A DNA stretch of 39,772 bases from an uncultured Spirochaetales bacterium (lineage in GTDB: Bacteria; Spirochaetota; Spirochaetia; Sphaerochaetales; Sphaerochaetaceae). The position numbers and the translations under genes are program-made. This document shows, piece after piece, positions 1 to 32,580 of this stretch (its first letter is position 1; each line of letters opens with the position of its first letter). The notes under the pieces are model-generated. The model did no database searches. It was given only the letters and a program-made list of their open reading frames with translations, and was not told the DNA's origin. The DNA is taken from assembly GCA_947305945.1 (NCBI GenBank), contig CAMZFA010000002.1:1-39772 (forward strand), read 5' to 3'.

Positions 1-1185
1 ATGAAGCTTCTCAATGAGGCCCTTGAATCATACAAGGACCATCCGCTCTATTCTCTTTTCAATGATTTGGTGAAGGACGCAGAATCAAACCTTCTCAACA
101 TTTGGAAGACATCTGTAAAGGATTTGCAGGCGGGAAAAGACGAGAACAAGAAGTCAGCATATCTGCACTTCAAGGCCTATGTGTCAGGCTCACTCATTGA
201 CCTGATGAACGAGACAACATCAAAGGAGCTGTCAGCAGAGGATATCTACAACAGATATGAGAACATCAAGAACATTGCAATCGGCAGTTGTTGGAAGGAC
301 ATGACATCGGAAACCCTAATGGATTCCGCAAAATCCACCCCGACAGAATCAGCCCTGAAGACAATGCAGATGTTCAAGGATAATCCCGATGCAGTCTACT
401 ACAACGACTATTCCGGGAATCTTGTATGGTTTGATCAGAAGATGCAGTCAACATTCGACAATGCAGCCCTTCAGATTCGTAATGACCTTGAAGAGCAGTT
501 CGGACTTCAGCTTGACGAGAAGCCGGACATCACCATCAAGGAGACCGCATCGGGCGCATACCCGGTTGCAAGGTTCAAATCCACAAACGGAAAGGAATAC
601 CGCGTTGACGGGGACGGCAACGTATTCGTTGTCGGAGCATCCGGAAACCTTATCTCTTATGGAAAGCTCGGTGAAACACCTGATCCGGTTCAGACAAAGA
701 CGGCGGAAACCTTTGCCGGAATCACGGTTGCCGAGGCCGTTGAGCTTGCAAGTCAGGCTCCGTCCACTCCGAAGCCGAACATTCCTTCAGCATCCTACAT
801 AAAGGAGCTGATTGAGGAAGGCTATACACCTGAGGAAGCCGTGCAGAAGGCCGTCAGCGAGAACCCTCCCGGAGCTTTCACGATTCCGACCCCGGCAGTC
901 AGCACCAATGAGAACAAGGATGCCTCTCAGTCATTGAGGGAATGGAACGATCAGATAGAAGAGAACACAAGAAGACAGAAGGATCAGGAATTTGCAAACC
1001 GCAATTCAGGAACACTCACTTCAAGTCAGGAAGCCTACGCCTCCGAGATTGAGGCTCAGGGCTATGACTACAATGAAGCCTTGCAGCTCGCTCCGCTTGT
1101 AGACAAGTACAGAGCAGAGGAAAAGCTTTCATTTGAGGAAGCCCTGAAGAAGGCTATCAGAGAACTTGGAATCAAGGAGCGGTAA
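1..1185 (+). CDS. C-terminal part of internal virion/ejection protein (probably continuous with the open ORF at 38225-39772 across the circular junction)
   Basis: ORF open from base 1 with no visible RBS; followed directly by the giant ejection protein; T7 gp15-like position; right-edge ORF ends in the same frame. Confidence 0.7.
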   Translation: MKLLNEALESYKDHPLYSLFNDLVKDAESNLLNIWKTSVKDLQAGKDENKKSAYLHFKAYVSGSLIDLMNETTSKELSAEDIYNRYENIKNIAIGSCWKDMTSETLMDSAKSTPTESALKTMQMFKDNPDAVYYNDYSGNLVWFDQKMQSTFDNAALQIRNDLEEQFGLQLDEKPDITIKETASGAYPVARFKSTNGKEYRVDGDGNVFVVGASGNLISYGKLGETPDPVQTKTAETFAGITVAEAVELASQAPSTPKPNIPSASYIKELIEEGYTPEEAVQKAVSENPPGAFTIPTPAVSTNENKDASQSLREWNDQIEENTRRQKDQEFANRNSGTLTSSQEAYASEIEAQGYDYNEALQLAPLVDKYRAEEKLSFEEALKKAIRELGIKER

Positions 1186-4100
1186 ATGACCCTTTATCAG
1201 CAGCAGGAACGTCAGGCAGAACAGAACAATAATCCGAGCATCACGGATATTCTCGCAAAACAGACCCGGGAAATGGTCTCAGATCAGAAGCGTTTATCTG
1301 AGAGAATCAACGGGGTGACAGGTCTTGACCTCACGCCGGACGAGTATTCAATGATCTCAACCGCAATGGCGAGCAGCAAGAATCCGGACGAGACGGCAAA
1401 CCGGTTCGCTCAGGCCTTGACCTATTCCCATAACTCGGGAATCACCTTTGAGGAAGCATACTCAAACCTCGATGCCCTGAATCTCAATCAGTTGGGAAGA
1501 AAGGTCGATGTCACGCAGACCGGAACGAAGGCCGTTATCAACAGCTTCAAGATCGGCAAGCTCACCGTGAAACGCCAAAGAATCGCTCAGGAGGCTTACA
1601 GGGCCTATCAGAACGGCATGGACGTTTCATCCATTCTCTCTTCAGACGTTGCGAAGGAAATCGAGGCGTTGGACAACGAGATTGCAGACCTTCAGGACTA
1701 CATGCCGAGAGCATGGTATACGGAGATTGCCAAGAACGCAGCCAACACTCTTTCCTATTCATTCAACGTTGCAGCCGCAGCCGCAGCAGGAAAGGCTCTC
1801 GGAGCTGTCGCAGGAAGCAACCCGGTAAGCGCAGGACTTGCTACCTTGTTCAGCTTCCTTGAAGGCTATCAACTCACCAAGTACGGCAACTGGTACGACA
1901 ACATCAAGGCCGGGGTGGACCCGAAGGTTGCGGACGCGGTTCAGACTGTCAGCGCAGGAATACAGGCGGCAATAGAATCCTACCTCGATGTAAACGTTGG
2001 TCTTGTGAAGTCATTGGGTTCAGGAACAGCGAAATCCATAGCCTCAAACACCCTGAAGAACATGTATGTGAACGGCACCTTGAACAAGGTCGGCATGTTC
2101 TTCACCAAGTATGCAATCAACATGGCCTCGGAAGGCACAGAGGAATTCCTTCAGGAGATCACCGAAGAGGTCTTTGACAACATGGCTTTCTCCCTGAGCG
2201 GCAAGGAAGCACCGAATGAACTCAAGGACATCCTTGCGAACTCAATCAAGGCGTTTGCCGGAGGTGCTTCCTCGGCAATCATCCTCGGTATCGGTGATGC
2301 AGCCTATGAGACCAAGATGAATGTGAATTATGCGCAGAACCTCAAGAAAGAGGCCATCGCAAACCCCTCAAAGGAAACATTCATAAACAACCATATTAAT
2401 GATGAAGAACTTGGAACCGCAAGCCGCAAGGACAAGAGCGAAATCCTGAGCAAAGCCTACGACAACACAAGAAAGGCCGCACAGGAAGAAGGCGTTTCCG
2501 TTTCTGAGGCAAAGACCATTGATACGGACTTTGACATCAATGACGATTTCAACCCCGAAACAGACAGTGACGAGGCCCGCACCTCGGAGCAGCCGGTTGA
2601 ACCGGTCAAGAGAATGGACAACGGCAGGCTCCGTGTTCAGGAATCCCAAAGGGTGACGCAGAACTCGGACGGAACGGAATCCCATACCCTGAATATCGGT
2701 TCCCGGGGAAGCTCCACAAGATACGGTTATGTGGACTACACGATTGATACTCAGAACAAGACAGTCACCATAGATCAGGTCGCAACAAGACTTGGTTATG
2801 AGGACCTTGCCCGCGATGCGGTCATGGAGGTCGAGAGGTCCCATGAGGGATGGAATATCGAATGGAACCCTGAGACAGCAGCACAACAGGCCATCAAGGA
2901 ACAGATAGTCAATGACCCGAACAACCCCAACCGTGGAAACCTTCAGTGGTTCAACGAAGGCGAGGACGTTGACACCAACATTCAGGTCGGAGAATGGATA
3001 AAGAAAACCTTCAGCAATCTCACAACAGAGCAGTCTGTCGTAGCTGCAAAGCTTCTTGAATTCACCGCAAAGTCTCAGGGCGTGGACACTAAAACATGGA
3101 TAAATGACCACATTCAGAACCTTCAATCCTTTGATGAATCCGGAAAGAAAGGCGCGGTCTCATTCAATGATTCGGACATAAAGGCCATAATCTACGCCGG
3201 AGAGAACGCGGACTTCTCCACGTTCAGCCATGAGACCTTCCATGTTCTTGTCAGGACCTCTCAGGCAGCATCAAAGCTTGCCGAGGCTTTCAGGAACGCC
3301 TCACAGTCATCAGATTTCGCAAGGTATGTGAACAGCCACAAGCAGATCATAAAGATGGACTTGGACGAGGTTCTTGAGGCCGTGAAGGACATGGGTGACA
3401 ACCCGCTTGAATGGACCCGTGCTCAGCATGAGGTTGCGGCAACCTTCTTTGAATCATATCTCCGGGACGGAAAGACATTCAGCGAGAAGCTGAAGAACAT
3501 CTTCACTCAGATTGCAGACTGGTTCCACAGAATCTATAAGGCCCTGAGAGGCGAAAACTCTCTCAATGACGAAATCGTGAAGGCCTATGACGAAATTCTT
3601 GCCGGGAATCCGGAGCTGAGAAAAACCGTTGAGGCCTCAAATTCCGACACAGATCAGCAGAACAATGTGAAATCCGAAGAATTCTCACCTGAAGACGAGG
3701 ACGAGGACAACGGCCTTGATGAATACGGTAATCCGCTTTACCAGTCAGAGGACAGAGAAAGCAGAATCGCTTCCTTTACGGACGAATCAAACTATTCTCC
3801 CGAGAACATTGAGGGGAACGTATACATTGATGCTGCAAGGAAAGAGCTGAGCAACAAAAACAGCATTGAGAAAGCCCAATATGAAAAAGAATTGATGATG
3901 GCGCATAAGTTGTCAGAACACTTCAATTGCAAGGTGTTCATGCTGCCTCCGACCATCGAAGACGGTTTCATATATGTTGAGAAGCAGTCCAACCCCGACA
4001 GTGTTGTGAAAGGATTCTTTGTTGATTTCAAACAGATCAATACAGACAAGCCGAACTCGGTGCAGCGCGCCATGAAAGAAGGAATCAGACAGGCGGATGC

Positions 4101-7100
4101 AGTTTACATTGAACTCGGAGACAATATCTCCATAGGCAATGCAACACGCGCTTTGATTGGTCAGGTTAAATCAAACAACAACAATCACGAAGGGTTTGGA
4201 ATAGTTATCTCTGATAGTGCCGGAAACTTCAAGGAATATCAGATAATAAAAAAGAGGCTTGTAGAAAGCCCCTTTATTGGCGGAGCGGAACTTGCGCCCC
4301 TCTCCAATGACAATTATAGCGCAAAATCCTCAGCCGTCAAGAGCGGCATAAAACGGCTCTATCAGCAGGACGGCACAGCCATTGAAGAGTATAAGGGAAC
4401 GCTTGTAGTTACCCACAATCTCACAGAAGGAAACCTTGAGGGCGTGTTGGGAATCGGCGGCATGCCGATGCCTTCTCTTGCAGTTACAAGACCGGACATC
4501 AAGATTGACAGTTTCGGCCCGATAACCCTTGTCGGAGATTCGCAGCTTGCAAATCAGCTCATGAGAAACGGTGAAATCTTTGACCGTGATATGTGGTCTC
4601 CGACAGCTCCGAGACCCGAATTTAAGGTTGACAAAAAGGGCCTGAAGAAATTTGACGATTGGATCAGAGACCTTCCTTATAAAGGCTCTCTTCATGTCAA
4701 CATGACAAATGCCTTGATGGATTATCAGAAGAACAGTCCGGAGAGTCTTGCTTCCTTCTATGCCTATAAAGACGGCATACGGATGGAGTATTGCAAAGAG
4801 AACGGCATAGACGTTGAGATTCCATACAGGCTTGTCAGATACAACTATGACGATAGAATCATGAAGGCTGCAAAGGCTTGGGCTGAAGAACACAACGAAA
4901 GATATCTAAGCTTTGAACAGACAGCCGAATTCCAAAAGGCAATCAAGCCGGCTGTAGATGAAGTCCTTGCGGAAATGGAAGCAGAGTATGAGCGCAAGTA
5001 TTCAAAAGAGAACACTTCAAAATTCAAAATGAATATAGGTCATGCTCTTATCGAATTTGTGCGGGACAATCTTACCACAGACAACTTTCATGAGCTTTCA
5101 AACCTTCTGAGCGAAGCTTCCCTGTATGAAGAAGGCAAGAAGGAAATGGATGTCTATGCTTTGAAGGATACACTTGATAAGGTCGCTCCGGCTGCGGATG
5201 TCGAGAAATGGCTACTTGAGAAAAAGTTCTCCGGCATTTTCTCAGACCCAATGATAACCATAGGTAGAAGCAAGGTTCCCTATAATGCTCAGAACATTTT
5301 TGAGGCAATGAGGCGCAGTCAGTATGTAGGAAACGGCCTCGGGACTATCACATACTCAAATTCCCTTGCAGCTTCAAGCGGCGCAAGAGCCTTGAGAACA
5401 AGACAGGCCGTTGCAGAGAAAGAGGGCCTGTTGGGTGATGTTAAAGATGAAAACTATGAAGATGCTTTCAATTCGTACCATGATTTGGCGGTAAAGAATT
5501 ATAAGTATAACGACACATGGGATGCTCTTGACGATTCAAACAAAGCAATTGCCAAGTACCTTGAATCAAACAACCGAACAACTGAAAACCTGAAACAGCA
5601 GTTGAAGAAGCTTGATTTCAATGTCACCGATGAACTTGTGTCAGAGGCGCAGAAGCTCGTTGATTACATCGAGGGAATGACCCGCAGATACTTTGAGGCA
5701 AAGCCCCGGAGAATCATGCAACTCTCAGACTTCAAGTACGCAATTGTCCCGACAAACGCCAAAGCCGAGACTGCTCAGGTTCTTCAGCAGGCGGGCCTTT
5801 CCGTTGTCAGGTCTGATTCAAGAGAAGAAGCCTTGAAGAAGATTGCAGAGAATGACACGAAGGTTCTATGGCAGCTTGATAACATGACCGAATCCTCGCT
5901 CATTGCAGAGGCAAAGGACTTTCAGACAAAGGATGAATTCATCGAGTTTGAGAAGGCTTTTGACCTTGACGGCATTTCAAGCGAAGAACTTTCCGAGATA
6001 TGGGATAAGGCCCACGGGGTGTATCAGGTCAAGAAGGAGGAATACACTTCCCCGATTGACCCGAACATGCCCGAAGAGGACAAGGACGAGGCCTTCAGGG
6101 TGATCATGTCAACGGACGAGGGAATCAAGGCCTTCATCCAAAGGCTGCGGGATGCCTTCAGCGCAAGGCGTGATGTACGCAGAAGCGGCGGACAGATCGG
6201 CGTTTACACTGAAGAGGACTACAACGCCATCATGCAGGACATCGCCAATGCGGACCGCGTTGAGACCGAGGCTGCACCGTATATCACAGCTCTTGCAAAA
6301 TCGAACAAGGACATCACCCCGGAAGCCATCAGCAAGGTCCGGGGAATGATAAACAACTCACTCAGAGACTACAGGGACCTCTACTCTCAAATCATCGGGG
6401 ACGAGAACTTTGCGGCAGGCGTTTACAATGAATTCCTTCCGAACATCAAGGATTCAAGGGCCAACGGCATGAGAATCACACAGAGGAAGGACCTTGCCAA
6501 CCGCATTGAAGGTGAACAGCTCCGGGAAGAGATCAGACGCGGAACCGAGAAGTATGACGGCACAGCCGAAAAGGTCATGGCTGTATACGACAAGGAGCTG
6601 AAGGACCTTCAGGACGATTACGCCAAGCTCAAGGAGCAGTACGACAAGACATATCTGAAAATGAGCGTTGAGCAGCAGAGCGCGGTCAGGAAGGCTCAGC
6701 AGATAAAGAAGATGGAATCAGCCATCGCAAGAGAGCGGCAGAACGTCAGGATGAAGCTTGATTCAGGCCGCCGCGTCTCCACCGAACAGCTTCAGAAGCT
6801 CAACGGTTGGGAGGACGAGCTGAATCTTCTCCACGAAGAGATCAAGGAACTCAGGAAGCAGGATGCGGTCAAGGCCACAATCGAGAGACATGAGGCACTG
6901 GACAAGCTGAAGGAAGCCATCAGGCAGAAGCAGAGGGACAAGGCCGCAGTCGAGGCCGTACACCGCTACAAGCGTGAACTCTACAACTCCATTGTCGAGA
7001 AGATACCCAACAACGTTGACTGGTCATACGTTCAGAAGATAAACGAGGTCATTGCCACCATCAAGGGAATTCAGGGCTATCAGAACAACTCCATCATGAT

Positions 7101-9462
7101 TGACGGCAAGCGCATGAAGCTTGAGGACTTCCGCAAGGGCGTTGAGGATGGCAGCATAAAGATTGAAGGTCTTTCGGACTATCAGCTCAAACGCTATCTC
7201 AACACCTCTCTTGCAGACCTCACCATTTCAGACCTTGAAACCCTGAAGGACACCGTTGACTACTACAAGATGATGGGAAAGCAGATGTGGCAGGCCAAAG
7301 TGGATCAGAGGAACTTTGAGGCCGAAATGTTCAGGAATCAGATTCTCGGTCAGGTCTACAAGGCCAAGAGCTATGACCCGGAGAAAGACCATTTGGCGGG
7401 TTCTGCTGAGAGCGACACCGTAAAGAAGAAAGGCCTTCTGAAGGGCGGATTCTACAAGACGCTCAACTGGAACCGCAAGGCTCAGATCATAGACAACGAC
7501 AGCAAGGGCCTCAACTATGACCTCACCGTTGAAGAGCGCAGGCAGCATCAGGACGAAATGCTCAGAGGCATACGCGACAGGGTTAATCCGGTCAAGGCCA
7601 TCCTTGAGGAAACAGGCCTGAAGGAGCAGGACTTCTATAAGACGGTCCCGGTTGTCTTCCCGGACGGCAAGGTTGAGAACTTCACAATCGGCAGGCTTGC
7701 ATATGGCATGCTCGCAGACAAGAACGAAAGGAACCTTTATGCGGTCTCTTACGGAAACCTTGTCACTCAGGCCGAGAAGGAAGCCATGACCGGAACGCAG
7801 GATCAGGCCAACGATCAGATAAAGAAGCTCGGAAACACAAGGTATCAGGCGTTCAAGGCTCAGGCGGAGGAATTCTTCAACGAGCATCCCGAATACATGA
7901 AGGTCATTGATGCCATCGTTGCGGACTGGAACAGCGAAGAGAACCTTGCAAGGATTCAGAAGATTCTCATTGATGAATACAACAAGCCGATGGAGGTCGA
8001 AGGTTTTTACATGACGATGCACCGTCAGGACTTTGACGGCACGGAATCAGCCTACAGGCTTCAGGACGATATGTACAACCTCAATGCCGGAAAGAGCAAG
8101 ACCACACCGGACAAAGGCTTCACCGAGAGCAGAATCGACATTTCCCCGATGAATCAGCAGCCGGTTGACATGGACATCTACCGTGTATGGCTTCAGAGCG
8201 TTGAGGATCAGGAGAACGTGATTGCGAATCTTCCCTATATCAGGAAGCTCAACAGAATCTACAAGAACCACGGAAGCAAGGGCCTCCGGAGCGCGATTGA
8301 GAACGCCCACGGCAGCGCAATCCTCACGGACCTCGACAACTACATCAACGAGGTTGCAAACAGCGCATTGTTCTCGGACACTCAGGAGATCAACGGTTAT
8401 GTTGGTTTGCTCAGAGGACAGCTTTACACCGCATATCTCGGTTACAAGATGTCGGGCATAGTCCTTCAGGGAATCACCTCACCGATGCCCTCCCTACAGG
8501 AAGTGAACCCGGCAGCTTTGGCAAAGGGCCTTCTGCAAATGACATTCCACCCCGTAAGCACATGGAAGAAGATCTGTGAGCTTTCGCCTTACATGGAACA
8601 CAGGTCAATGAACCCGACAATCGAGGCGATCAGGAAATATGCCTCACAGTATACCGATTCAAAGATGAAGGCAGCCTACAAGAAATTCCTTGAATTCGGA
8701 ACCGAGGGACTTGAGGCCGTTGACCGTTGGGCCGTTGCCGGCTCTTGGCTTGCAGTCTATGAGAAGAAGCTGAAGGAGCTTGGAGACAGCACAGAGGGAA
8801 TCAAGGCCGCAGCACACTATGCGGACAACTTCATACGCGACACTCAGCCCACCGGCGATGTGACCGAGCTTGCACCGCTTTTCAAGAGCAAGAACGCTTT
8901 TGCTCAGGCCTTCACTCAGTTCCAAGTCTCATTGAATGTGATATGGAACAACATCACCTACGATCTTCCGAAGGCCGTGAAGCATCATGAGTTTGCAAAA
9001 GCGGCAGGAATTGTGTTCGGCTATGCCCTTGCAGGCATCCTTTTGAATCTCGCACAGGAAGGCGTTGATGAAGATGATGAACCGGAGGACATTGCTGCAA
9101 AACTTGCCTATGCAGCCACAACTCAGTTTACTCAAAGCACTCCGCTTCTCGGCTCTCTTGTTGATTCAAGCTTTAAGAGAGCAATTACAGGCGAAGGTGG
9201 ATGGGTAACAAATACCAATCAGCTTTATCCCGGTCTTTCAAATATTGCGTCCGGTCTTGATTCGATAATGGCGAAGGGAATCAACGCAAACAACAGTGCA
9301 AAAATCGCAAAGGGTCTTGCCATCATGACAGGCCTTCCCACCTCGGGAGCCTCGGAGATTTGGCAGACCTTCTTTGACAGGAGCTTGGTTGATGCAATCA
9401 ACGAAGGAGATTTGAACTTTACCTTCAATCCGGGAGCTTTGCTCGGAAGAAGAGACTATTAA
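1186..9462 (+). CDS. Giant (2758 aa) polyvalent internal virion/ejection protein, T7 gp16 position
   Basis: Single long ORF; HETFH (HExxH) metallopeptidase-like motif with downstream QHEVAATFFESYL; CdiA-CT-like region; 'THNLTEGNLEGVLGIGGMPMPSLAVT' polyvalent-protein-type segment; coiled coil; C-terminal segment resembling large polyvalent-protein-associated domains; lies just before the tail fibre gene. Confidence 0.85.
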   Translation: MTLYQQQERQAEQNNNPSITDILAKQTREMVSDQKRLSERINGVTGLDLTPDEYSMISTAMASSKNPDETANRFAQALTYSHNSGITFEEAYSNLDALNLNQLGRKVDVTQTGTKAVINSFKIGKLTVKRQRIAQEAYRAYQNGMDVSSILSSDVAKEIEALDNEIADLQDYMPRAWYTEIAKNAANTLSYSFNVAAAAAAGKALGAVAGSNPVSAGLATLFSFLEGYQLTKYGNWYDNIKAGVDPKVADAVQTVSAGIQAAIESYLDVNVGLVKSLGSGTAKSIASNTLKNMYVNGTLNKVGMFFTKYAINMASEGTEEFLQEITEEVFDNMAFSLSGKEAPNELKDILANSIKAFAGGASSAIILGIGDAAYETKMNVNYAQNLKKEAIANPSKETFINNHINDEELGTASRKDKSEILSKAYDNTRKAAQEEGVSVSEAKTIDTDFDINDDFNPETDSDEARTSEQPVEPVKRMDNGRLRVQESQRVTQNSDGTESHTLNIGSRGSSTRYGYVDYTIDTQNKTVTIDQVATRLGYEDLARDAVMEVERSHEGWNIEWNPETAAQQAIKEQIVNDPNNPNRGNLQWFNEGEDVDTNIQVGEWIKKTFSNLTTEQSVVAAKLLEFTAKSQGVDTKTWINDHIQNLQSFDESGKKGAVSFNDSDIKAIIYAGENADFSTFSHETFHVLVRTSQAASKLAEAFRNASQSSDFARYVNSHKQIIKMDLDEVLEAVKDMGDNPLEWTRAQHEVAATFFESYLRDGKTFSEKLKNIFTQIADWFHRIYKALRGENSLNDEIVKAYDEILAGNPELRKTVEASNSDTDQQNNVKSEEFSPEDEDEDNGLDEYGNPLYQSEDRESRIASFTDESNYSPENIEGNVYIDAARKELSNKNSIEKAQYEKELMMAHKLSEHFNCKVFMLPPTIEDGFIYVEKQSNPDSVVKGFFVDFKQINTDKPNSVQRAMKEGIRQADAVYIELGDNISIGNATRALIGQVKSNNNNHEGFGIVISDSAGNFKEYQIIKKRLVESPFIGGAELAPLSNDNYSAKSSAVKSGIKRLYQQDGTAIEEYKGTLVVTHNLTEGNLEGVLGIGGMPMPSLAVTRPDIKIDSFGPITLVGDSQLANQLMRNGEIFDRDMWSPTAPRPEFKVDKKGLKKFDDWIRDLPYKGSLHVNMTNALMDYQKNSPESLASFYAYKDGIRMEYCKENGIDVEIPYRLVRYNYDDRIMKAAKAWAEEHNERYLSFEQTAEFQKAIKPAVDEVLAEMEAEYERKYSKENTSKFKMNIGHALIEFVRDNLTTDNFHELSNLLSEASLYEEGKKEMDVYALKDTLDKVAPAADVEKWLLEKKFSGIFSDPMITIGRSKVPYNAQNIFEAMRRSQYVGNGLGTITYSNSLAASSGARALRTRQAVAEKEGLLGDVKDENYEDAFNSYHDLAVKNYKYNDTWDALDDSNKAIAKYLESNNRTTENLKQQLKKLDFNVTDELVSEAQKLVDYIEGMTRRYFEAKPRRIMQLSDFKYAIVPTNAKAETAQVLQQAGLSVVRSDSREEALKKIAENDTKVLWQLDNMTESSLIAEAKDFQTKDEFIEFEKAFDLDGISSEELSEIWDKAHGVYQVKKEEYTSPIDPNMPEEDKDEAFRVIMSTDEGIKAFIQRLRDAFSARRDVRRSGGQIGVYTEEDYNAIMQDIANADRVETEAAPYITALAKSNKDITPEAISKVRGMINNSLRDYRDLYSQIIGDENFAAGVYNEFLPNIKDSRANGMRITQRKDLANRIEGEQLREEIRRGTEKYDGTAEKVMAVYDKELKDLQDDYAKLKEQYDKTYLKMSVEQQSAVRKAQQIKKMESAIARERQNVRMKLDSGRRVSTEQLQKLNGWEDELNLLHEEIKELRKQDAVKATIERHEALDKLKEAIRQKQRDKAAVEAVHRYKRELYNSIVEKIPNNVDWSYVQKINEVIATIKGIQGYQNNSIMIDGKRMKLEDFRKGVEDGSIKIEGLSDYQLKRYLNTSLADLTISDLETLKDTVDYYKMMGKQMWQAKVDQRNFEAEMFRNQILGQVYKAKSYDPEKDHLAGSAESDTVKKKGLLKGGFYKTLNWNRKAQIIDNDSKGLNYDLTVEERRQHQDEMLRGIRDRVNPVKAILEETGLKEQDFYKTVPVVFPDGKVENFTIGRLAYGMLADKNERNLYAVSYGNLVTQAEKEAMTGTQDQANDQIKKLGNTRYQAFKAQAEEFFNEHPEYMKVIDAIVADWNSEENLARIQKILIDEYNKPMEVEGFYMTMHRQDFDGTESAYRLQDDMYNLNAGKSKTTPDKGFTESRIDISPMNQQPVDMDIYRVWLQSVEDQENVIANLPYIRKLNRIYKNHGSKGLRSAIENAHGSAILTDLDNYINEVANSALFSDTQEINGYVGLLRGQLYTAYLGYKMSGIVLQGITSPMPSLQEVNPAALAKGLLQMTFHPVSTWKKICELSPYMEHRSMNPTIEAIRKYASQYTDSKMKAAYKKFLEFGTEGLEAVDRWAVAGSWLAVYEKKLKELGDSTEGIKAAAHYADNFIRDTQPTGDVTELAPLFKSKNAFAQAFTQFQVSLNVIWNNITYDLPKAVKHHEFAKAAGIVFGYALAGILLNLAQEGVDEDDEPEDIAAKLAYAATTQFTQSTPLLGSLVDSSFKRAITGEGGWVTNTNQLYPGLSNIASGLDSIMAKGINANNSAKIAKGLAIMTGLPTSGASEIWQTFFDRSLVDAINEGDLNFTFNPGALLGRRDY

Positions 9463-9474
9463 GGAGAACACGAC

Positions 9475-10428
9475 ATGATTACAAAAACCGTCAATGTTGT
9501 TCGTTATCTCGTTTCAGGAAACTCTTACCCTATAACCTATGGCTATTGGGACAAGGAGGAAATCAAGGTTTATCTCACCCAAGAGGACAATTCCCTTGTC
9601 CTTCTCACATTGGGTACGGATTATTCCCTGTCTTCCCCGAATGGGACCAATGGTGTTTTGGTCAAGGTTTCGGATTGGGGTACAGCGACAAAGATTACGA
9701 TTCTGAGAGAGGTTTCACTCACTCAGGAAAGAGACCTTGTAAACGGTCAGACGCTCAATGCGGAAACCATTGAAGCAGCACTGGACCATTCAATGGCAGC
9801 GATTCAGCAGCTCAAGGAAGAGCAGTCGAGATCGCTGAAGACAGCAGTTGATGAAGAGGGATTGGAGATAACGTTCCCCAACACCGAAGCGAGAAAAGGA
9901 ACCGGAAGCGGAACCGTAATCTGCTTTGATTCCTCCGGAAGTACAATCGTTCTCAGGGACTTGAAAAAGTTTGATCAGGACATCATTGATGCCGCAAACT
10001 CAGCACTTGAGGCCGCTCAGAGCGCACTTGAATCGGAAGCTTCCTATCAGCGCGCCCACAACGAGGGCATTTCAAACATCGTGAGCAACGAGACGGGTGA
10101 CTATGTGACCGTCTCAATCATTCAGAGAGACGGCACAACCACTTCCTATACCGTGCAGCGTGGAAAGAAGGGAGAGAAAGGCGATACCGGAGCAACAGGC
10201 GCAACCGGTGCAACCGGAGCGCAGGGACCTCAGGGTATTCAGGGGCCGAAGGGTGATACTGGTGCAACCGGTGCCACCGGAGAGAGCGGTGTCACTACAC
10301 CCATTGCGTCATTCTTCACCCTTGCGGTTGACGCGGACGGAAACCTCTATGCCTATCATGCGGACGAGGATTACCCGCCTGATTTCTATTACGATTCCGA
10401 TACAGGGAATTTGTATATCGACACTTAA
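9475..10428 (+). CDS. Tail fibre protein with T7 gp17-like N-terminal domain and collagen-like repeats
   Basis: N-term '[18 protein letters not shown]...GTDYSLS...[43 protein letters not shown]' typical of T7 tail fibre N-terminal family; 14 Gly-X-Y triplets at 10162-10287. Confidence 0.88.
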
Positions 10429-10723: not shown

Positions 10724-11857
10724 ATGTCAGTTACAAAACCGGTAATGTTGGATGAAACTGGACAGGAAATGGTGGAAGTTCTCAGAGGTGTCAAGATGGC
10801 AATTGCCTCAGGAAAGGATTCTGAGATCACGACATGGAAGGAAATCCGCGCCAATGTGCGTAACGGATTGGGTGAAATCCTGTATCCCGTTGGAACAAAG
10901 TTTGTCATTTACAAGTATGCAAACGGCGCAACGAAATCAGGAACCCCGGTCAAGTATTATCTTGATGCGGTTGGACACAACAAGCACTTCCTTATCAGGC
11001 ATGGAGAGAAAACTGCGGATTATTCAATGACACTTCAGTTCCATGAGCTGCTGAATGATTCAATGCAGTTCGATGCTGCCGAGGATCAGTACGGAGTATC
11101 ACTTGATACATCGGTTGTCTCTTGGAAGACCTATTATTCGGACACCTCCGGAACGGTTGTCGTTGACCCGACAGGAAACCCGAGTACAAACGGATATTAT
11201 GAGAAGAATGATACTTCCACATATCCGAGAAGCACCTACGGTTCAAACAACTGGAGACATTCAGGAATCAGAAAATGGCTCAATGCAGACCCGGACACAG
11301 CAGCAGATGCTTGGTGGGCCAAGTCCACACCGTTTGACAAGAAGCCGGATTATGGCACATACCTCCCGTTCCAAGCTCTGCTTGCAGACAACACGGACGG
11401 TGATGCAGCCACACTTCTTGACGTTATCGGACCGGTCACGATCAGAACCATCCTGAATACCATCAAAAACCCGGACAACTCGGATTACTACCTTGATGCG
11501 GATGCTTCAGGCCAGTACGCAGTTGCTTCAAGACTTGCCTACGATGTGACGGAAGATACCTTCTTCCTGCCGACAACAAAGGAAGTTCATTGCAGCACAT
11601 ACAACGAGGACGGCGGAGTTCTTCTTCAGTATTATGACAAGTTCTCCGATTACGCCTCTCCGATTGGTGCATGGGGAAGCGCGGACACAAACCTTCTCAA
11701 GCACAAGCAGAACGCAAGTTCCGCCACGGATTGGTGGCTGCGCTCGGCGGGTACGGGCTATGCGCGCGATGCTGTGAGTGTGGGTTCCGATGGCACAGTC
11801 AACAGCGGCGGCGCGTACACTGCGTATGGGGTGGCTCCGATTTGCGTAATCTACTAA
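10724..11857 (+). CDS. DGR variable (target) protein; C-type-lectin-fold/DUF6273-like receptor-binding tip
   Basis: C-term WWLRSAGTGYARDAVSVGSDGTVNSGGAYTAYGVAPICVIY, encoded by VR that matches TR except at TR adenines; RBS ggagg. Confidence 0.9.
   Translation: MSVTKPVMLDETGQEMVEVLRGVKMAIASGKDSEITTWKEIRANVRNGLGEILYPVGTKFVIYKYANGATKSGTPVKYYLDAVGHNKHFLIRHGEKTADYSMTLQFHELLNDSMQFDAAEDQYGVSLDTSVVSWKTYYSDTSGTVVVDPTGNPSTNGYYEKNDTSTYPRSTYGSNNWRHSGIRKWLNADPDTAADAWWAKSTPFDKKPDYGTYLPFQALLADNTDGDAATLLDVIGPVTIRTILNTIKNPDNSDYYLDADASGQYAVASRLAYDVTEDTFFLPTTKEVHCSTYNEDGGVLLQYYDKFSDYASPIGAWGSADTNLLKHKQNASSATDWWLRSAGTGYARDAVSVGSDGTVNSGGAYTAYGVAPICVIY
11716..11844 (+). repeat. DGR variable repeat (VR), 129 nt, ending with IMH-like ggggtggctccgatttg
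   Basis: Manual alignment with 12338-12463: about 17-18 substitutions, all opposite A in TR, no non-A mismatches, plus one 3-nt insertion in VR. Confidence 0.95.
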
Positions 11858-11910: not shown

Positions 11911-12330
11911 ATGTCAGTGGTGAAGTCAAAGAGAATCACAAGACCTTTGAAGGCTTGCGTACTTGCCGTTCAGTTATTGGGAAAGACAATTGATGTGTGT
12001 TCAAGCAAGAACAACTTCCCTATAAGAAAGAAGTGGGCGATTCCGAGCGACCTCTACTATGAGGTCAGGGAATATTGCGTGAACATCAACCTTGCCAATG
12101 ATGTGAAGGTTTGTGATGCAAAGACCGCAAAAGAGCGGTTGGAGCATGATGCGGAAGCCGGAAAGCACTTGAAGAGGTTTATGATCCTCTGCAATGTGGC
12201 CTCTTTGACTTACCCGTTGGGTGAAACTGTGGTTAATTCTTGGATTGGCCTTGCCAATGAAAACGTTGAGCTATTCAATAAATGGCACAAGTCGGAGTTG
12301 GAGAGGTATTCAGGATTTTTGAATGGGTAA
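11911..12330 (+). CDS. avd: Avd-like accessory variability determinant
   Basis: 139-aa helical, basic protein between VR and TR; strong RBS (gaaggagagg); position and size match DGR Avd four-helix-bundle proteins. Confidence 0.75.
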   Translation: MSVVKSKRITRPLKACVLAVQLLGKTIDVCSSKNNFPIRKKWAIPSDLYYEVREYCVNINLANDVKVCDAKTAKERLEHDAEAGKHLKRFMILCNVASLTYPLGETVVNSWIGLANENVELFNKWHKSELERYSGFLNG

Positions 12331-12337
12331 TAGTTGT

Positions 12338-12463
12338 AAGTTCCGCCACGAATTGGTGGCTGCGCTCGGCGAATACGGACAATGCGAACAATGCTATGAA
12401 TGTGAATTCCGATGGCACAGTCAACAACAACGCGTACAATGCGAATGGGGTGGCTCCGATTTG
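12338..12463 (+). ncRNA. DGR template repeat (TR) within noncoding TR RNA region (about 12331-12572)
   Basis: A-rich in AAY triplets; pairs with VR with adenine-only differences; ends ggggtggctccgatttgG versus ...tttgC in VR; immediately upstream of RT. Confidence 0.95.
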
Positions 12464-12572: not shown

Positions 12573-13796
12573 ATGGCCTCTACGGTCTACGGACATAGAG
12601 AAACAGCACCGTGGCAGGGTGCAAGCCCTGCCGAATTATTTAAAGATATGGACGAGGTAAGAGAAAAGATTTCAAGCATCTATAGTCTCAATAAAGCGTT
12701 TGTGCGCTGCAAAACAGGAAGGCTTTGGAAACCTTCTGTTATGGACTATTACCTTCACATGATCCGTTACAACTACATTCTTCACATTCAGCTTGACGGA
12801 GACACCTACCGCGTTAAACCTTGCTATCACTTCACCATCTATGAGCCGATGATGCGAAACATTCAAGCTCCGCACCTCACCGACAGGGTTGTGCAGTCAA
12901 GCACCTGCAACAACTACCTCAAGGAGAAATTGAGGTATGTGTTCATCAGAGGCAATTGCGCCTGTCAGGAGGGAAAAGGAACCGATGACGCGAGAAACTA
13001 CTTCAAGGAACTTCTCAGGCGGTATTACCGCAGATACGGAACGGACGGGGTGGTTTGGAAGATAGACATTAGGCATTACTTTGCCTCAATAGACGGCGAT
13101 TGCTTGGATGCCATCAATCAGAAGTACATTCAAGATGAATGGGTTATATCATACATGGAGCAATGGGGTGTTCGGAAAGGCTCCAAAGGTTTAGGCCTCG
13201 GAGCTGAGACAAACCAGTTTGAAGCAGCTCTTGCTCTCCACCCGATTGACACATTCTTCAAGACGGTTGCCGGGTGCAAATACTACGTCAGATACCAAGA
13301 CGATATCATGATCATTCTTCGCAATAAAGAGGAAGTACACCGGGTCCAAGACATGCTGATTCAGCAGCTTGTGAAACAGAAGCTTACTCTCAATCAGAAG
13401 AAAACCCGTATCTTCAAGTTGTCGGCATGGTATTCCTTCCTCGGGTTCAACTTCACCGTGACTGAGACCGGCAAGGTTTTAATGCGTATCAAAGCGGAGA
13501 GTGTCAGCAGGCAACGGCGCAGATGCAGACACCAGTTCAACAATATTCCTTCCGAGGATATTGAGATTTCAGGTACTTGTTGGGCGGCAAACGCGTCCAA
13601 AGGTAATAACTACTTCATAGTCAGGAAGACGGAGGCTTACATTATGGAAATTGTAAGAGAGAAAAGAGAGCAGGAGAAAAAGATTGAGGCTTCTGCTGCA
13701 AGAGTTGAGAAGCTTGTTGCGAATCAGGAGTATATCGCAATGATGGCAGACATTGACCTTCCCGAGGAAGGAGAGAGGCAGGAGGTGGCTGAATGA
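12573..13796 (+). CDS. DGR reverse transcriptase
   Basis: YYVRYQDDIMII (catalytic YxDD, 13293-13304), upstream VVWKIDIRHYFASID, GLGLGAETNQF motif 4, LTLNQKKTRIFKLSAWYSFLGFNF. Confidence 0.95.
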   Translation: MASTVYGHRETAPWQGASPAELFKDMDEVREKISSIYSLNKAFVRCKTGRLWKPSVMDYYLHMIRYNYILHIQLDGDTYRVKPCYHFTIYEPMMRNIQAPHLTDRVVQSSTCNNYLKEKLRYVFIRGNCACQEGKGTDDARNYFKELLRRYYRRYGTDGVVWKIDIRHYFASIDGDCLDAINQKYIQDEWVISYMEQWGVRKGSKGLGLGAETNQFEAALALHPIDTFFKTVAGCKYYVRYQDDIMIILRNKEEVHRVQDMLIQQLVKQKLTLNQKKTRIFKLSAWYSFLGFNFTVTETGKVLMRIKAESVSRQRRRCRHQFNNIPSEDIEISGTCWAANASKGNNYFIVRKTEAYIMEIVREKREQEKKIEASAARVEKLVANQEYIAMMADIDLPEEGERQEVAE

Positions 13797-15475: not shown

Positions 15476-15521
15476 TGGCTGTTTTTACGCAGCCATTTCG
15501 CAATCGACATTGAGGTACGAC

Positions 15522-16670
15522 ATGAAAAGATCACTTCCATTCAAACGCACTCCAAACGGAAAGTATTACTTCCGCTACTCCGATGCAGACGGCAATCGGA
15601 ATCAGAAATGCACAGGAACCTATGACTATGACGAGGCTCTTCTGATTATGAAGGCCTTCATGGGAAAGGTTGTCACTCCGGACATCCCCACATTCAGGGA
15701 CGAGCTGAGGCTTTACCAGTCAATCGACACGAACCCGAAATTCAAGACGGCGCAGATTGACGGCAGCCACTATTCAAGACGGTATGCACAGACCGTTGCG
15801 TACAAGGCCAAGAAGCTTGAGCAGATATGCCTAGAATCCTGCCCTGAGCTGTTTATGCTCAAGCTTGATGAATTTACCCGCCGGGATGCAAAAAGGCTCA
15901 CAGAGGCCATTGTCGCATCAATGGGACATTGCAGGACAGCACAGATATGCCAACAGGTCATGAAGGGCATCTTCTCCGAGGCCGTGCAGGACGGGGTGAT
16001 TCAAGTCTCCCCGGCCTTTGGTCAGAAGTGCATCAAGTATGATCCGAAGGAAAGATATGCGGTCCCCAACGAATGGCTTGCATGGGTAATAGACAGCCCT
16101 GATCTCTTCTTGGACCGGGAGGCATGGGCCTTCTTCTCCATTGCAGCCACAACCGGAATGAGAAGATCAGAGATTCTTGCATTGTCCACCGAACAGTTGA
16201 AAGGTGACGTTCTCACCATCAACAGAAACCTCTTGGGCACAGGCAAAGATTCAGAGATCGGTCTTCCGAAATGGGACATCATCAGGACCATTCCTGTTTC
16301 CAACATCACGCTTCAGATAATCAAGAGCATGAAGCCATATTCCAACGGGAGATACTTCTACAGATCATCAGCATGGGTGCAGAAGGTCTTTGACAACCTG
16401 AAGGCAACGCTCAACGGCTTGGACAAGGAGCATGAAGACTTTTGGTGCGATCTCACCCCGCATATCCTCAGACATTCATTCAACACGAATCTTCTTGTTT
16501 CAGGAGTGAATGACAATCTTATTGCCGAGTATTTGGGATGGCAGCATCAAGGGAAGCTTCTTGACATCCAACACAGATACACCCACTTCATCACGAAACA
16601 CCTGAGGCCGGTTTCGCAGAAGGTGGACGAGATTTACGCGTACAACGAAGAATTGCTGTTGGCTTTGTAG
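15522..16670 (+). CDS. int: Tyrosine recombinase/phage integrase
   Basis: TTGMRRSEILAL, HILRHSFNTNLLVSGVNDNLIAEYLGWQ, RYTHF motifs with R, H-x-x-R, Y. Confidence 0.93.
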   Translation: MKRSLPFKRTPNGKYYFRYSDADGNRNQKCTGTYDYDEALLIMKAFMGKVVTPDIPTFRDELRLYQSIDTNPKFKTAQIDGSHYSRRYAQTVAYKAKKLEQICLESCPELFMLKLDEFTRRDAKRLTEAIVASMGHCRTAQICQQVMKGIFSEAVQDGVIQVSPAFGQKCIKYDPKERYAVPNEWLAWVIDSPDLFLDREAWAFFSIAATTGMRRSEILALSTEQLKGDVLTINRNLLGTGKDSEIGLPKWDIIRTIPVSNITLQIIKSMKPYSNGRYFYRSSAWVQKVFDNLKATLNGLDKEHEDFWCDLTPHILRHSFNTNLLVSGVNDNLIAEYLGWQHQGKLLDIQHRYTHFITKHLRPVSQKVDEIYAYNEELLLAL

Positions 16671-27449: not shown

Positions 27450-28174
27450 TGCGTGAATATCTACTGTCATGGGATGTAGCTCAGAAGCAGGACAAGACAG
27501 CCCTTCAGCTTTGGAGGCGCACACCCTCAATAGTACCCGGCAACAGGATCGCCGAAGACCGGGTGTTCAACTACTTGGATTTGGTCTATCAGCGCGAAAT
27601 GGAAGGTGTTCCATATACCGAGCAATGCAAGGCCGTGCAGGAACTTCTCAACGGTGAGCGCATGAAGAACAACTGTGATCTCGTCATTGACGGAACCGGC
27701 ATCGGGCAGGCGGTTGTGGACATCATGCGGGAGCATGGACTTGAGCCGATTCCGATAGTCTTCACATCCGGGTTGACCATGAACGTGAAGTACGCCGAAG
27801 CGACAAGAAGATTCGGAGGATTCGGGAAAACGCTTGATTTGAGGACAATTGCTGAACTTTGCGTCCCAAAGGTGGACATGATTCACGCCGCAAAGGTGCT
27901 TCTTGAACAGAACCGGATTAGAATTGCAACAGGTGTGGCAAATGCGGAGGAATTCAAGAAGCAATTGCTTCACTTCAAAGGAAAAGTCAATGAGCGCGGC
28001 AACGTCTCATACGGCAATGACGCTGAGGCCAAACATGACGATTGGGTTGCCTGCTTCATAATGGCCTGTTGGTTCGCCAACTACTCAGGTCAGACGGACA
28101 ACGAAAGAAAGGTTCCGAAGAGCGGTGGAGACACCTACAAGACATGGAACCCGTTAGGTGATACGGAATGGTAA
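27449..28174 (+). CDS. terL: Terminase large subunit, nuclease half
   Basis: LLSWDVAQKQDKTALQLW, CDLVIDGTGIGQAVVDIM, HDDWVACFIMACW. Confidence 0.88.
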   Translation: MREYLLSWDVAQKQDKTALQLWRRTPSIVPGNRIAEDRVFNYLDLVYQREMEGVPYTEQCKAVQELLNGERMKNNCDLVIDGTGIGQAVVDIMREHGLEPIPIVFTSGLTMNVKYAEATRRFGGFGKTLDLRTIAELCVPKVDMIHAAKVLLEQNRIRIATGVANAEEFKKQLLHFKGKVNERGNVSYGNDAEAKHDDWVACFIMACWFANYSGQTDNERKVPKSGGDTYKTWNPLGDTEW

Positions 28175-29814
28175 CTGCAAAGCAGCTTGAAAGAATCACA
28201 AGAGCAAAATCCAACCTTGAGACGGACCGGGCCATTTTCATTTCCCGTTGGAAGGAAATTGCACGGCAGATGCTCTCTTCCTACGGTTCATGGGGCAAAT
28301 CGGCAGATACTCAGAAAAACCTTGACGATACGGCATCGAATTTCGACAACACGGCGAATCAGGCATCAAACCTCATGGCGGACGGTCTGATGGGTTCGTG
28401 TTTTGGACGCAATATCGCATGGTTCTCCCTTCTATTTGAGAAGAACGATTGGAACAAGGACAAATCTGCTGCCGAATGGCTCTACAATCAGGAGCGCATA
28501 GTCTACAGACAGTTTGACCGCAGCAACTTCTATGACGAGGCAAGGTCCTTTGTCCGTCTCGGAGCTGATTTCGGTACGGCAACGATGTTCATGCAGGAGC
28601 ATCCGGAGGAAGGAAAGCCCTTCTTCAGGACGCTTCACCCGAAAGATGTGGTCCTCATGGAGAACCGTTTCGGTGTTGTGGACACCATGATCAGGGACAT
28701 CTATCTCACAAAGGACGATGCGATCAAGGAGTTCGGAGAGAAGAAGCTTCCCGAGACAATCAGGACAAACGAGGACTACACGAAGAAGTTCGTCTTCCAT
28801 CAGTACATCGGCCCCAACTACCGCTTTGAGCTGAATGTGAAGGGAACGGACGAGTATATCAGCATCTATTGGAGTGACGAGGATGCCACAAAGACCCTGA
28901 AGGAAGAGCGTTTCCCGCGCAAGCCCTTTGTTGCTTGGCGTTGGAACCGCGACCTTGAGGGTTGTGTCTACGGAACACAGTCTCCCGGATTGATGCAGAT
29001 TTCCAACATGAAGTCCGTGAACAACCTCACCGAGAATGTTCAGAAGCAGTCACAGCTCATTGTTGAGCCGCCTATCAAGGCAACCGAAGGCCTTGTGGTC
29101 AACTTCAGACCGAGAGGCCTCAACTCGCTGAAGAACGGTGAGGATTTCGCTCCGGTGAACATCACGGGAGACCTCACATTCACGGAGAACGAGCGCAATT
29201 ACATCAGGCAGTCCATCAGGCAGGCCTACTATTCAGATTACTTCCTGCTTCTCTCTCAGAATTTGGACAAGACGAAGACCGCCACAGAGGTTGCGGGAAT
29301 CATGAGCGAGCAGAGCAACGTCATGAGCAGCTTCTTCAACAGGCTTGCAACCGAGTTCCTTGAGCCGGTGATCGAGTTTGTCTTTGAGAATGAAATGACA
29401 CACGGAAGGCTTGAGGCCATTCCTGAGAACTCAACATTCTCAGGCGAGGAAATCAAGGTTGATTTCGTATCACCGATGTTCCTGATTCAGAAGCGTTCAC
29501 ACACCGTTGACGGAATCGTTCAGGCAGCAGCTCAGATTCTCCAGTTCGCAGAGGTGAAGCCGGAGATCGTTGACAAGCTGCGTTTCGACAACATTGCCGA
29601 TGTGATTGCGGACGGTTGGAACGTGAAGAAGGTCCTCATTGAGGAAGACCACAAGGTTGCAGAGATCAGAGAGAAGCGCGCTCAGATTCAGGCTGCAATG
29701 GCAGATCAGCAGATGCAGAACGAGACCGGAAAGGCGCAGGCTCAGATTTACGATCAGCTTGGAAAGGCCCCGGAATCAGGCTCAGCGATGGCTCAGGAGG
29801 AACAGAGTGCCTAA
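28168..29814 (+). CDS. Portal (podoviral head-to-tail connector)
   Basis: 548 aa; SNLMADGLMGSCFGRNIAWFSL, FVRLGADFGTATMFMQE; after terminase. Confidence 0.88.
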   Translation: MVTAKQLERITRAKSNLETDRAIFISRWKEIARQMLSSYGSWGKSADTQKNLDDTASNFDNTANQASNLMADGLMGSCFGRNIAWFSLLFEKNDWNKDKSAAEWLYNQERIVYRQFDRSNFYDEARSFVRLGADFGTATMFMQEHPEEGKPFFRTLHPKDVVLMENRFGVVDTMIRDIYLTKDDAIKEFGEKKLPETIRTNEDYTKKFVFHQYIGPNYRFELNVKGTDEYISIYWSDEDATKTLKEERFPRKPFVAWRWNRDLEGCVYGTQSPGLMQISNMKSVNNLTENVQKQSQLIVEPPIKATEGLVVNFRPRGLNSLKNGEDFAPVNITGDLTFTENERNYIRQSIRQAYYSDYFLLLSQNLDKTKTATEVAGIMSEQSNVMSSFFNRLATEFLEPVIEFVFENEMTHGRLEAIPENSTFSGEEIKVDFVSPMFLIQKRSHTVDGIVQAAAQILQFAEVKPEIVDKLRFDNIADVIADGWNVKKVLIEEDHKVAEIREKRAQIQAAMADQQMQNETGKAQAQIYDQLGKAPESGSAMAQEEQSA

Positions 29815-30085
29815 AGAGAACGAAGCCCTACAGAAGAGACATGCTTATCAGAAAGTCTTCTGTCAGACCCCGGAGGGACAGAGCGTACTTGCGGACATCC
29901 TCAATATGCTCGGTTTCTTCTCGGTTGACCCTGCACTGATCAGCCCTGAGCAGACCGCAATCTGCAACAGGATTCTTCAGAATTGCGGAATCAACATTTA
30001 TGAGAATATCGGCAACTACATTCGCAGCATTGTAGATGCCGCAACGGATATAGACGTTGTACAGGAGGTAAAACATGAAAATTGA
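29807..30085 (+). CDS. Bbp19-like phage protein
   Basis: GTG start; KRHAYQKVFCQTPEGQSVLADILNMLGFF. Confidence 0.7.
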   Translation: MPKENEALQKRHAYQKVFCQTPEGQSVLADILNMLGFFSVDPALISPEQTAICNRILQNCGINIYENIGNYIRSIVDAATDIDVVQEVKHEN

Positions 30086-30932
30086 CTTCATGCCTAAGCT
30101 TTCCCCGGACGAAGGCGCAACCGGCGGTTCAGGGATTGACGATTTCCTCCCCCCTGCTGAGGAAGGCGGAGAGACCCCGCCCGCAGATCAGGGAGGAAAG
30201 GACGGTAAAGACGGACAGGGAGACAAAGACCCTGCATGGTTTTCCCAACTTCCGAAGGAGATCAGGGAGAACGCAGAGAACAAGGCTGTCTTGGGTAAGC
30301 ACAAGAACCTGAGCGACCTTGCTATGGCATATTTGCAGAACGAGAAGGACCTCGGAACCGCAATCAGGTTCCCGAAGAAGGATGATGCCGCAGGAATCAA
30401 GAAGTTCTTCATGCAGCTCGGGATGCCCGAGAACGCAACGGACTATGAGCTTGACAACTACGACATGAAGGAAGAGGACCTTGCAGATGCAAAGGAGATT
30501 TTCAGGAAGGCGGCACATTCGGCTTCCCTTACAAAGGGACAGGCAAAGGCAATGTGGCGGCATGAAATGGCTCTCTCCAAAGCAGCTCAGAAGCTCTCGG
30601 AGAATTCTCAGAAGAAGTATGAGGATTCCTTTGAGCCAAGCTATCACAAGCTCATGGAGAGCGCATATCCGGTTGAGGCCGAGAGGACAAAGGCAATCAA
30701 GGGAGAGATAAGCCTGATTCAGGGCATGTTCTCAAAGAACCCGGCTATTGCAAAGGCCTTCAAGACCTCCGGACTTGTGTACAACGCAGAGGTCATGCAC
30801 GAACTTGCGGGGTACATCAAACAGAACACAGCCGGAAGGTTTGTCGATTCTCAGGGCGGCGAACCCGAACAGAAACCGGTTGGAGTGATGGGAAACTATT
30901 CTGAGCAATTCCTGAAGGCGGCGGGCAAATGA
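30075..30932 (+). CDS. Scaffolding/capsid assembly protein
   Basis: Acidic, helical, between portal and capsid. Confidence 0.78.
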   Translation: MKIDFMPKLSPDEGATGGSGIDDFLPPAEEGGETPPADQGGKDGKDGQGDKDPAWFSQLPKEIRENAENKAVLGKHKNLSDLAMAYLQNEKDLGTAIRFPKKDDAAGIKKFFMQLGMPENATDYELDNYDMKEEDLADAKEIFRKAAHSASLTKGQAKAMWRHEMALSKAAQKLSENSQKKYEDSFEPSYHKLMESAYPVEAERTKAIKGEISLIQGMFSKNPAIAKAFKTSGLVYNAEVMHELAGYIKQNTAGRFVDSQGGEPEQKPVGVMGNYSEQFLKAAGK

Positions 30933-31078
30933 GCGGACTGTTGGACGAACTGTTGAAAGACGAAGAGCAGCCCGAGCAGAAGCCCGAGGCGAAGGGAATG
31001 TTTGAGTATTCCGACAAATTCAAGGAATACGCTGAAAAGAATAACACCGCCGTTGGCGGAGAGAAAGAAGGCGAGTGA
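30929..31078 (+). CDS. Small acidic protein (49 aa)
   Basis: ATGA overlap; MSGLLDELLKDEEQPEQKPEAKGMFEYSDKFKEYAEKNNTAVGGEKEGE. Confidence 0.5.
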   Translation: MSGLLDELLKDEEQPEQKPEAKGMFEYSDKFKEYAEKNNTAVGGEKEGE

Positions 31079-31175
31079 AAACGGACTTGTAAAGAATAGG
31101 AACGAACCTTGATTGGGAGTTCCGAAGGAATAAGAGGGACAGTAAGCTAGTCGTAAATAATTGAGAGGAAAGAAA

Positions 31176-32141
31176 ATGTCACTTCTTACACCCTATCAGC
31201 ATGTGAACATCGTAGAAGCACAGAGACGCGCCGGCTACAAGAACGCTGCTGAATTTCTCGGAGAACTGGCAATCAAGAACGACCTGTTGAATTTCCTGCC
31301 GTTCCTGCCTGCTTCTCATGGCATCTATCACCAGTGGCTTGAAGCAGCAAAGCTCGGCAAAGGCTCATGGGGAAAGGCCAACTCCGGTATCGCAAAGATT
31401 GCATCAACCTCAGACCTTCAGACAGAAGGAATCTTCACCTATGAGGCTGATTCTCTCGTTGACGATAGAATCCTCAAGACGGCACCCAACAAGATCGCAG
31501 TCCGCGATTCCGAGGATGCTGCAAACGCAGAAGGCTTCATGCAGGACTGGTTCACAAAGCTCTTCTATGCCGACGGATCAGACCCGGACGGCTTCAAGGG
31601 ACTTGCAGCCCGCAGAAGCGCAGTTGATTCCGATGTTGTCTTCAGTTGCGGTGGCTCCGGTTCAGACCTCACCTCACTGTGGCTCTTTGAACTCGGTGAG
31701 AACGGTTTCAACATGAGATACGCAGTCGGTGCACAGCCCGGTTTCTCCAACGAAGACAAAGGCCTTCAGTATGTTGCCGCCCCGGACGGAACAGGCAACT
31801 ATTGGGCTTGGGTAAGACACTTTGAGATTCTTGCCGGTCTTCAGATCAAGAAGAAGCACTCCGTGCAGAGACTTGCAAACATCGAGACAGCAGGAGCAAG
31901 CAATCTGTTTGACCCGGATATCTTCATCAAGATGAAGAACAAGCTGCCTGAGATGGGCCGCGGAGCAATGGGATTCGGCAACAGAACACTCCACGCAGAG
32001 GTCGAGACCGCCGCCTACAACAAGACAAACGCTGCCTACAGCCTTGTCGATATTGAAGGTTTCGGACCGGTCACACGCGTTGTCGGTGTTCCTATCATGA
32101 TCGCCGAAGTAATCACAGACACAGAGACAGCAGTCAGCTAA
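31176..32141 (+). CDS. Major capsid protein
   Basis: 321 aa, RBS gaggaaag, located after scaffold; typical podoviral order. Confidence 0.85.
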   Translation: MSLLTPYQHVNIVEAQRRAGYKNAAEFLGELAIKNDLLNFLPFLPASHGIYHQWLEAAKLGKGSWGKANSGIAKIASTSDLQTEGIFTYEADSLVDDRILKTAPNKIAVRDSEDAANAEGFMQDWFTKLFYADGSDPDGFKGLAARRSAVDSDVVFSCGGSGSDLTSLWLFELGENGFNMRYAVGAQPGFSNEDKGLQYVAAPDGTGNYWAWVRHFEILAGLQIKKKHSVQRLANIETAGASNLFDPDIFIKMKNKLPEMGRGAMGFGNRTLHAEVETAAYNKTNAAYSLVDIEGFGPVTRVVGVPIMIAEVITDTETAVS

Positions 32142-32153
32142 GGAGGAAGCGAA

Positions 32154-32528: not shown

Positions 32529-32535
32529 GGACTTC

Positions 32536-32567
32536 GGGGGAGGCAACTCCCCCATCCTTTATTTTTT
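32536..32567 (+). terminator. Rho-independent terminator
   Basis: gggggag-gcaa-ctccccc perfect 7-bp stem, then atcctttatttttt. Confidence 0.88.
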
Positions 32568-32580
32568 CCGGAGGCTTCAA

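Follow-up and report, generated by a model that had tools for sequence, protein, structure and literature searches.

Introduction

Residues 700-1000 of Bbp10, a protein of Bordetella phage BPP-1, served as a seed of the published CLCA_X zincin family (PMC3650047). The gene that encodes it, bbp10, adjoins bbp11, in which the BPP-1 transglycosylase resides. For polyvalent proteins, Iyer et al. (2017) predicted that zincins carried within the chain cut it into units, and the available part of that article gives no recognition site for such processing (PMC5512222). We found no proteomic evidence of Bbp10, or of the giant protein described below, in virions; the analysis in the BPP-1 study was confined to the two major bands (PMC3863775).

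Here, we describe a giant open reading frame (ORF) in a draft genome; the window is the whole of its contig, of 39,772 bases. We consider it rather probable, taking the parts of the claim together, that this ORF encodes a Bbp10-type virion or ejection protein of a BPP-1-like podovirus with a Treponema-lineage host, and that the protein consists of a constant frame and exchangeable cargo, with L-[FYW]-Q borders cut by its zincin. The frame with cargo exchange and the junction motif are new, while the assignment of the Bbp10 protease region to a zincin family was already known (PMC3650047).

The giant gene and its phage setting

The giant ORF (Table 1) comprises 2758 codons without an internal stop and predicts a protein of 310.6 kDa. 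Its ATG overlaps the stop codon of the preceding gene (TAAATG), its GC content by codon position (0.52/0.35/0.61) is of the coding type and, because homologous reading frames occur in 25 of 141 genomes of the host family, it is no chance ORF. The original prediction of a 2758-aa ORF at 1186-9462 is therefore borne out by the open frame, the ribosome-binding site, the codon composition and the homologous frames.

The gene preceding it is split by the contig ends, with 516 codons at 38225-39772 continuing in frame into 394 codons at 1-1185 to give a gene of 910 codons. Since this gene joins the contig ends in frame, the phage map would be circular or terminally redundant, and the contig probably represents a circular map. 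The 910-codon gene has no Pfam or PHROG match, and a search for a transglycosylase domain in this occupant of the bbp11 slot found none. Portal, major head and tail genes lie upstream of the giant gene at 28168-35428. The tail gene is separated from the split gene by an ORF of 930 aa (35430-38222), which possibly encodes another internal virion protein; it has no PHROG match, and its only Pfam match, to Borrelia P83, is weak and under the cut-off.

The gene order of BPP-1 is kept (portal/head/tail, giant gene, fibre, retroelement target gene, avd-position ORF, reverse transcriptase), and the giant ORF occupies the bbp10 position, flanked by the bbp11 slot and the fibre/mtd/avd/RT cassette. It had been predicted to lie between a gp15-like gene and a tail fibre: a fibre-like gene is indeed present downstream (9475-10428), but "gp15-like" holds for the position only. 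The template repeat (12338-12432) is distinguished from the variable repeat (11716-11810) by 15 substitutions, each at a template adenine, and the diversity-generating retroelement, which is of the BPP-1 type, looks complete and intact. The C-terminus of the retroelement target gene product (10724-11857) is DUF6273/Hoc-like. An integrase homologue at 15510-16670 (phrog_1, E 2.9e-32) suggests that the phage is probably temperate. The host genome carries a gene for an Omp85 protein, which points to a diderm host, and the closest named genomes in which a homologous protease region occurs are Treponema metagenome-assembled genomes (MAGs).

Table 1. Features of the giant gene, its protein and the adjoining cassette (window coordinates).
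Feature	Position	Strand	Basis or remark
3' part of the preceding gene, slot of BPP-1 bbp11	1..1185	+	5' part = 38225-39772
AAGGAG ribosome-binding site ahead of the ATG	1174..1179	+	sequence
Bbp10-type giant polyvalent protein, 2758 aa, 310.6 kDa	1186..9462	+	ORF and homology
N-terminal conserved region, aa 49-640	1330..3105	+	common to family relatives
Zincin-like protease region, aa 640-835, homologous to Bbp10 aa 761-953	3103..3690	+	alignment, PMC3650047
HETFH (HExxH), aa 682-686	3229..3243	+	H, E, H invariant in 18 sequences
E749, candidate third zinc ligand	3430..3432	+	invariant downstream Glu
LYQ junction site, aa 851-853	3736..3744	+	between zincin and CdiA_C-like module
CdiA_C-like tRNase segment, aa 936-999	3991..4182	+	just below Pfam cut-off
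LYQ junction site, aa 1058-1060	4357..4365	+	between CdiA_C-like module and PBECR5
PBECR5 predicted RNase, aa 1065-1284	4378..5037	+	Pfam, E 1.3e-21
Extension, aa 1285-1560	5038..5865	+	accompanies PBECR5 in other phages
LWQ junction site, aa 1561-1563	5866..5874	+	behind PBECR5 module
Linker, highly charged, helix-rich, aa 1700-1999	6283..7182	+	sequence
C-terminal conserved module, aa 2000-2758	7183..9459	+	aa 2298-2663 matches phrog_9880
Hydrophobic membrane-helix-like segment, aa 2606-2624	9001..9057	+	position kept in relatives including Bbp10
C-terminal tail ALLGRRDY	9436..9459	+	LLGR/LWGR-type tail in many host-lineage relatives
avd-position ORF	11911-12330		retroelement cassette
Reverse transcriptase (RT)	12573-13796		retroelement cassette

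Domain content and relationship to Bbp10

The best domain match of the giant protein, absent from the original prediction, is PBECR5 (78 bits against a cut-off of 25), whose candidate active-site His of the N-terminal helix, H1077, is kept in five of six aligned relatives and is Arg in the remaining one. The CdiA-CT-like segment that had been proposed is real but borderline (PF18451, E 7.8e-6, with 26.4 bits where the cut-off is 26.6). Together with the HExxH region, these domains give a single chain of disparate parts encoded in a late virion gene cluster, which fits the polyvalent type, and the idea of a polyvalent ejection protein was broadly right because of the bbp10 position and the matches to Bbp10 in the protease region and C-terminus. 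The membrane-like, Ala-rich character of the N-terminus is weak (12-14% Ala, one marginal hydrophobic segment at aa 349-367). The strongest hydrophobic segment of the protein (aa 2606-2624) is C-terminal, and the C-terminus, which had been likened to large polyvalent-protein-associated domains, matches no such domain in Pfam. Weak Pfam matches to SduA_C, InvH, GlutR_dimer and AvrM-A were rejected as chance, being below the cut-off or found in a single member. Searches against solved structures, for which the queries were the whole protein and profiles of its zincin, C-terminal, N-terminal and PBECR5 parts, returned nothing or chance matches only.

In the PHROG scan, aa 2298-2663 match phrog_9880 at E 5.2e-31. 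With a score of 2331 bits against this profile, Bbp10 belongs to phrog_9880, which places the giant protein in the Bbp10 family. An hhalign comparison of the C-terminal alignment with Bbp10 was not counted as evidence because Bbp10 sits in that alignment. In the protease region, the identity to Bbp10 aa 761-953 is 27% over 191 aa (E 2e-11). The HETFH motif had been located exactly, at residues 682-686, and QHEVAATFFESYL comes after it; H682, E683, H686 and E749 are invariant in 18 homologous sequences. The proposal of a putative Zn-peptidase at this motif is supported by a conserved HExxH..E site, by homology to Bbp10 and by the published zincin seed (PMC3650047). Pfam zincin models match none of the 18 family members. 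Fold models of the region reached a pLDDT of 51 from the single sequence and of 70.5 when two Treponema homologues were added (three sequences only), and Foldseek with these shallow models gave no significant match, zincins included (best viral match E 0.14). The sequence evidence favours a zincin around aa 682.

The "lysin/crystallin" names of Bbp10 homologues would instead make the giant protein a lysis protein, and homologues in Caulobacter and Antarctic phages have been named as such (PMC9239159). However, Pfam finds no peptidoglycan hydrolase domain in the giant protein, nor a lytic transglycosylase (SLT) domain in particular, and the location of the BPP-1 transglycosylase in the neighbouring bbp11 suggests that the name was probably transferred from that gene. 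We regard a lysis protein as very improbable.

Constant frame and exchanged middle

The number of aligned relatives per residue is ~17 at aa 700-800, falls to ~0-1 at aa 900-1050, stays at or below ~5 up to aa 1850 and reaches ~23 at aa 2450. Treponema-lineage relatives retain the N-terminal/zincin and C-terminal parts and have the middle exchanged, with ADP-ribosyltransferase, LPD3, RadC, MuF_C or PBECR5 domains found there. As judged from these alignments, the giant protein is a constant frame that carries exchangeable cargo. Most full-length host-lineage relatives also have a hydrophobic helix ~130-155 residues from the C-terminus.

Upstream of the ADP-ribosyltransferase and LPD3 domains, many relatives carry a recurring linker resembling APNGKPSNLSYEQWVTVRTPAFKxWFGDWE (loci L069, L070, L072, L075, L082, L108, L111, L117, L122, L124 and L127), a second conserved junction element. 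In Cobetia phage Carin1 (L048, 4660-13230), the PBECR5 module of the Bbp10 homologue precedes the protease, an order swapped relative to that in the window.

The L-[FYW]-Q junction motif

LYQ and LFQ were first noticed in a module alignment, where they flank PBECR5 modules on both sides. Across the first 27 proteins, LFQ was counted 26 times, where 8.8 would be expected, and these copies stand in 25 different contexts. In the mapped cargo, L[FYW]Q was counted 26 times, compared with one to six for the five permuted versions of the motif. No site among the 26 falls inside a recognised domain (domains cover 19% of the cargo; P 0.004). Because the motif had been found post hoc, the count was repeated on loci unused in its discovery. 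These held-out loci have 23 occurrences in the cargo, compared with three to five in permutations, although the number is somewhat inflated by the inclusion of partly similar proteins of one genome (L159, L160), and two and three occurrences in the N-terminal and C-terminal parts, respectively. The excess in the cargo is approximately sixfold over permuted controls in both sets. Closeness of the sites to domain edges, taken by itself, was not significant (P 0.07). In the giant protein, the sites at 851, 1058 and 1561 bracket the two cargo modules.

The excess has a limited range. It is absent from 277 other ORFs of the same loci (30 vs. 22-56) and from ten giants of other named phages, several of which have an HExxH motif (7 vs. 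2-8), and in phages of Proteobacteria, proteins of the Bbp10 type carry the protease but few L[FYW]Q sites. We accordingly rejected a motif rule valid for phages in general, and any L[FYW]Q rule would be restricted to this lineage. The same ten giants lend some support to a reading in which the ejection protein enters as one chain, like the virion RNA polymerase (vRNAP) of N4, with a zincin that is structural or directed at host proteins and with L[FYW]Q as a feature of uncut linkers, for example short binding segments. The N4 polymerase itself supports it further, having an HExxH domain yet being packaged unprocessed (available part of PMC5512222; PMC12633501). However, a passive linker need not show a motif that is confined to cargo, avoids domains and has flanks that resemble each other within a protein, and we consider entry as one uncut chain somewhat unlikely. 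In the held-out loci, the residues around the sites resemble each other more closely within one protein than they do across proteins (P 0.0003), as expected if the sites are fitted to one protease; internal duplication could also produce this likeness.

It is also conceivable that the sites are traces of cassette exchange, that is, borders inherited with the modules during recombination and devoid of any protein-level signal. The PBECR5 modules of several relatives do have a common upstream LFQSEDGRT or LYQSADGRT. Against this, the sites precede unrelated domains, have different flanks (71 distinct contexts) and use codons that differ from site to site, so that DNA homology does not account for all of them, and we hold this origin to be quite doubtful.

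Discussion

We propose that the sites at the cargo borders are processed by the built-in zincin, and the following sequence of events could connect the observations. The frame, packaged above the portal, would be formed by the N-terminal region with the zincin and by the helical C-terminal module with its conserved hydrophobic helix, and it would enter the envelope with the phage DNA. Gene position and analogy with the ejection proteins of the podoviruses T7 and N4 (PMC12633501) make it probable that virions package the giant protein and eject it together with the DNA or before it. The cargo would comprise the CdiA_C-like tRNase-type segment and the PBECR5 predicted RNase with its extension, and the built-in zincin would cut at or beside the L[FYW]Q sites at 851, 1058 and 1561, either before packaging or after entry, and thereby free the effectors. 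If cut after Q, the pieces would be of ~94, 23, 57 and 136 kDa, containing the zincin, the CdiA_C-like segment, PBECR5 and the C-terminal part, respectively. Zincins mostly recognise the residue that follows the cleaved bond, and a Q preceding it would be unusual. Given this preference, the cut could equally well precede L or F. Protease activity, injection and the nuclease targets are what we infer for this protein, which may likewise act on host defences.

We put forward only tentatively, and with confidence short of even, the proposal that phages of the Treponema lineage inject a self-processing effector polyprotein with a fixed frame, a built-in zincin, interchangeable cargo and a dedicated L-[FYW]-Q cleavage motif. 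If this is true, new effectors could slot in between the sites and be released one by one in the host. A recurring site at the cargo borders makes the zincin-processing idea of 2017 testable with small recombinant fragments, and L[FYW]Q borders would predict effector units in many uncharacterised giants. Such a site could also bring to light a common rule by which phages load the effectors they inject, in a host group whose phage biology is little developed.

Bbp10 of BPP-1 has the same gene slot and neighbours, a homologous zincin region, the C-terminal module and a conserved hydrophobic helix that lies about 150 aa before the C-terminus. It differs in its length (2052 aa vs. 2758 aa here), in an N-terminal region without detectable homology, in having no recognised nuclease cargo between the zincin and the C-terminus, and in its few L[FYW]Q sites, none of which lies in that interval. 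The likeness to CLCA_X zincins runs via Bbp10, with whose seed segment the protease region, HExxH included, aligns (PMC3650047). The T7 gp16 slot named in the original prediction applies to position only, behind the gp15 slot and ahead of the fibre genes; the PHROG scan returns phrog_9880 alone and no gp16-type match, and the searches made found no common domain, the N-terminal lytic transglycosylase of gp16 included. The N4 gp50 virion RNA polymerase is likewise a giant ejected protein with a membrane-type N-terminus, enzymatic cargo, an HExxH domain and a large helical C-terminal part (PMC12633501), whereas its cargo is an RNA polymerase placed before the HExxH domain and it is reported to be packaged uncut; sequence similarity to the giant protein, including a direct comparison with the zincin region, is not significant. 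Finally, polyvalent proteins with MPTase and PBECR domains similarly join unrelated effectors and a zincin in one chain encoded in a virion gene cluster and, as far as the available part of their description extends (PMC5512222), the fixed frame, the exchange limited to the middle and the recurring junction motif set the present protein apart from them.
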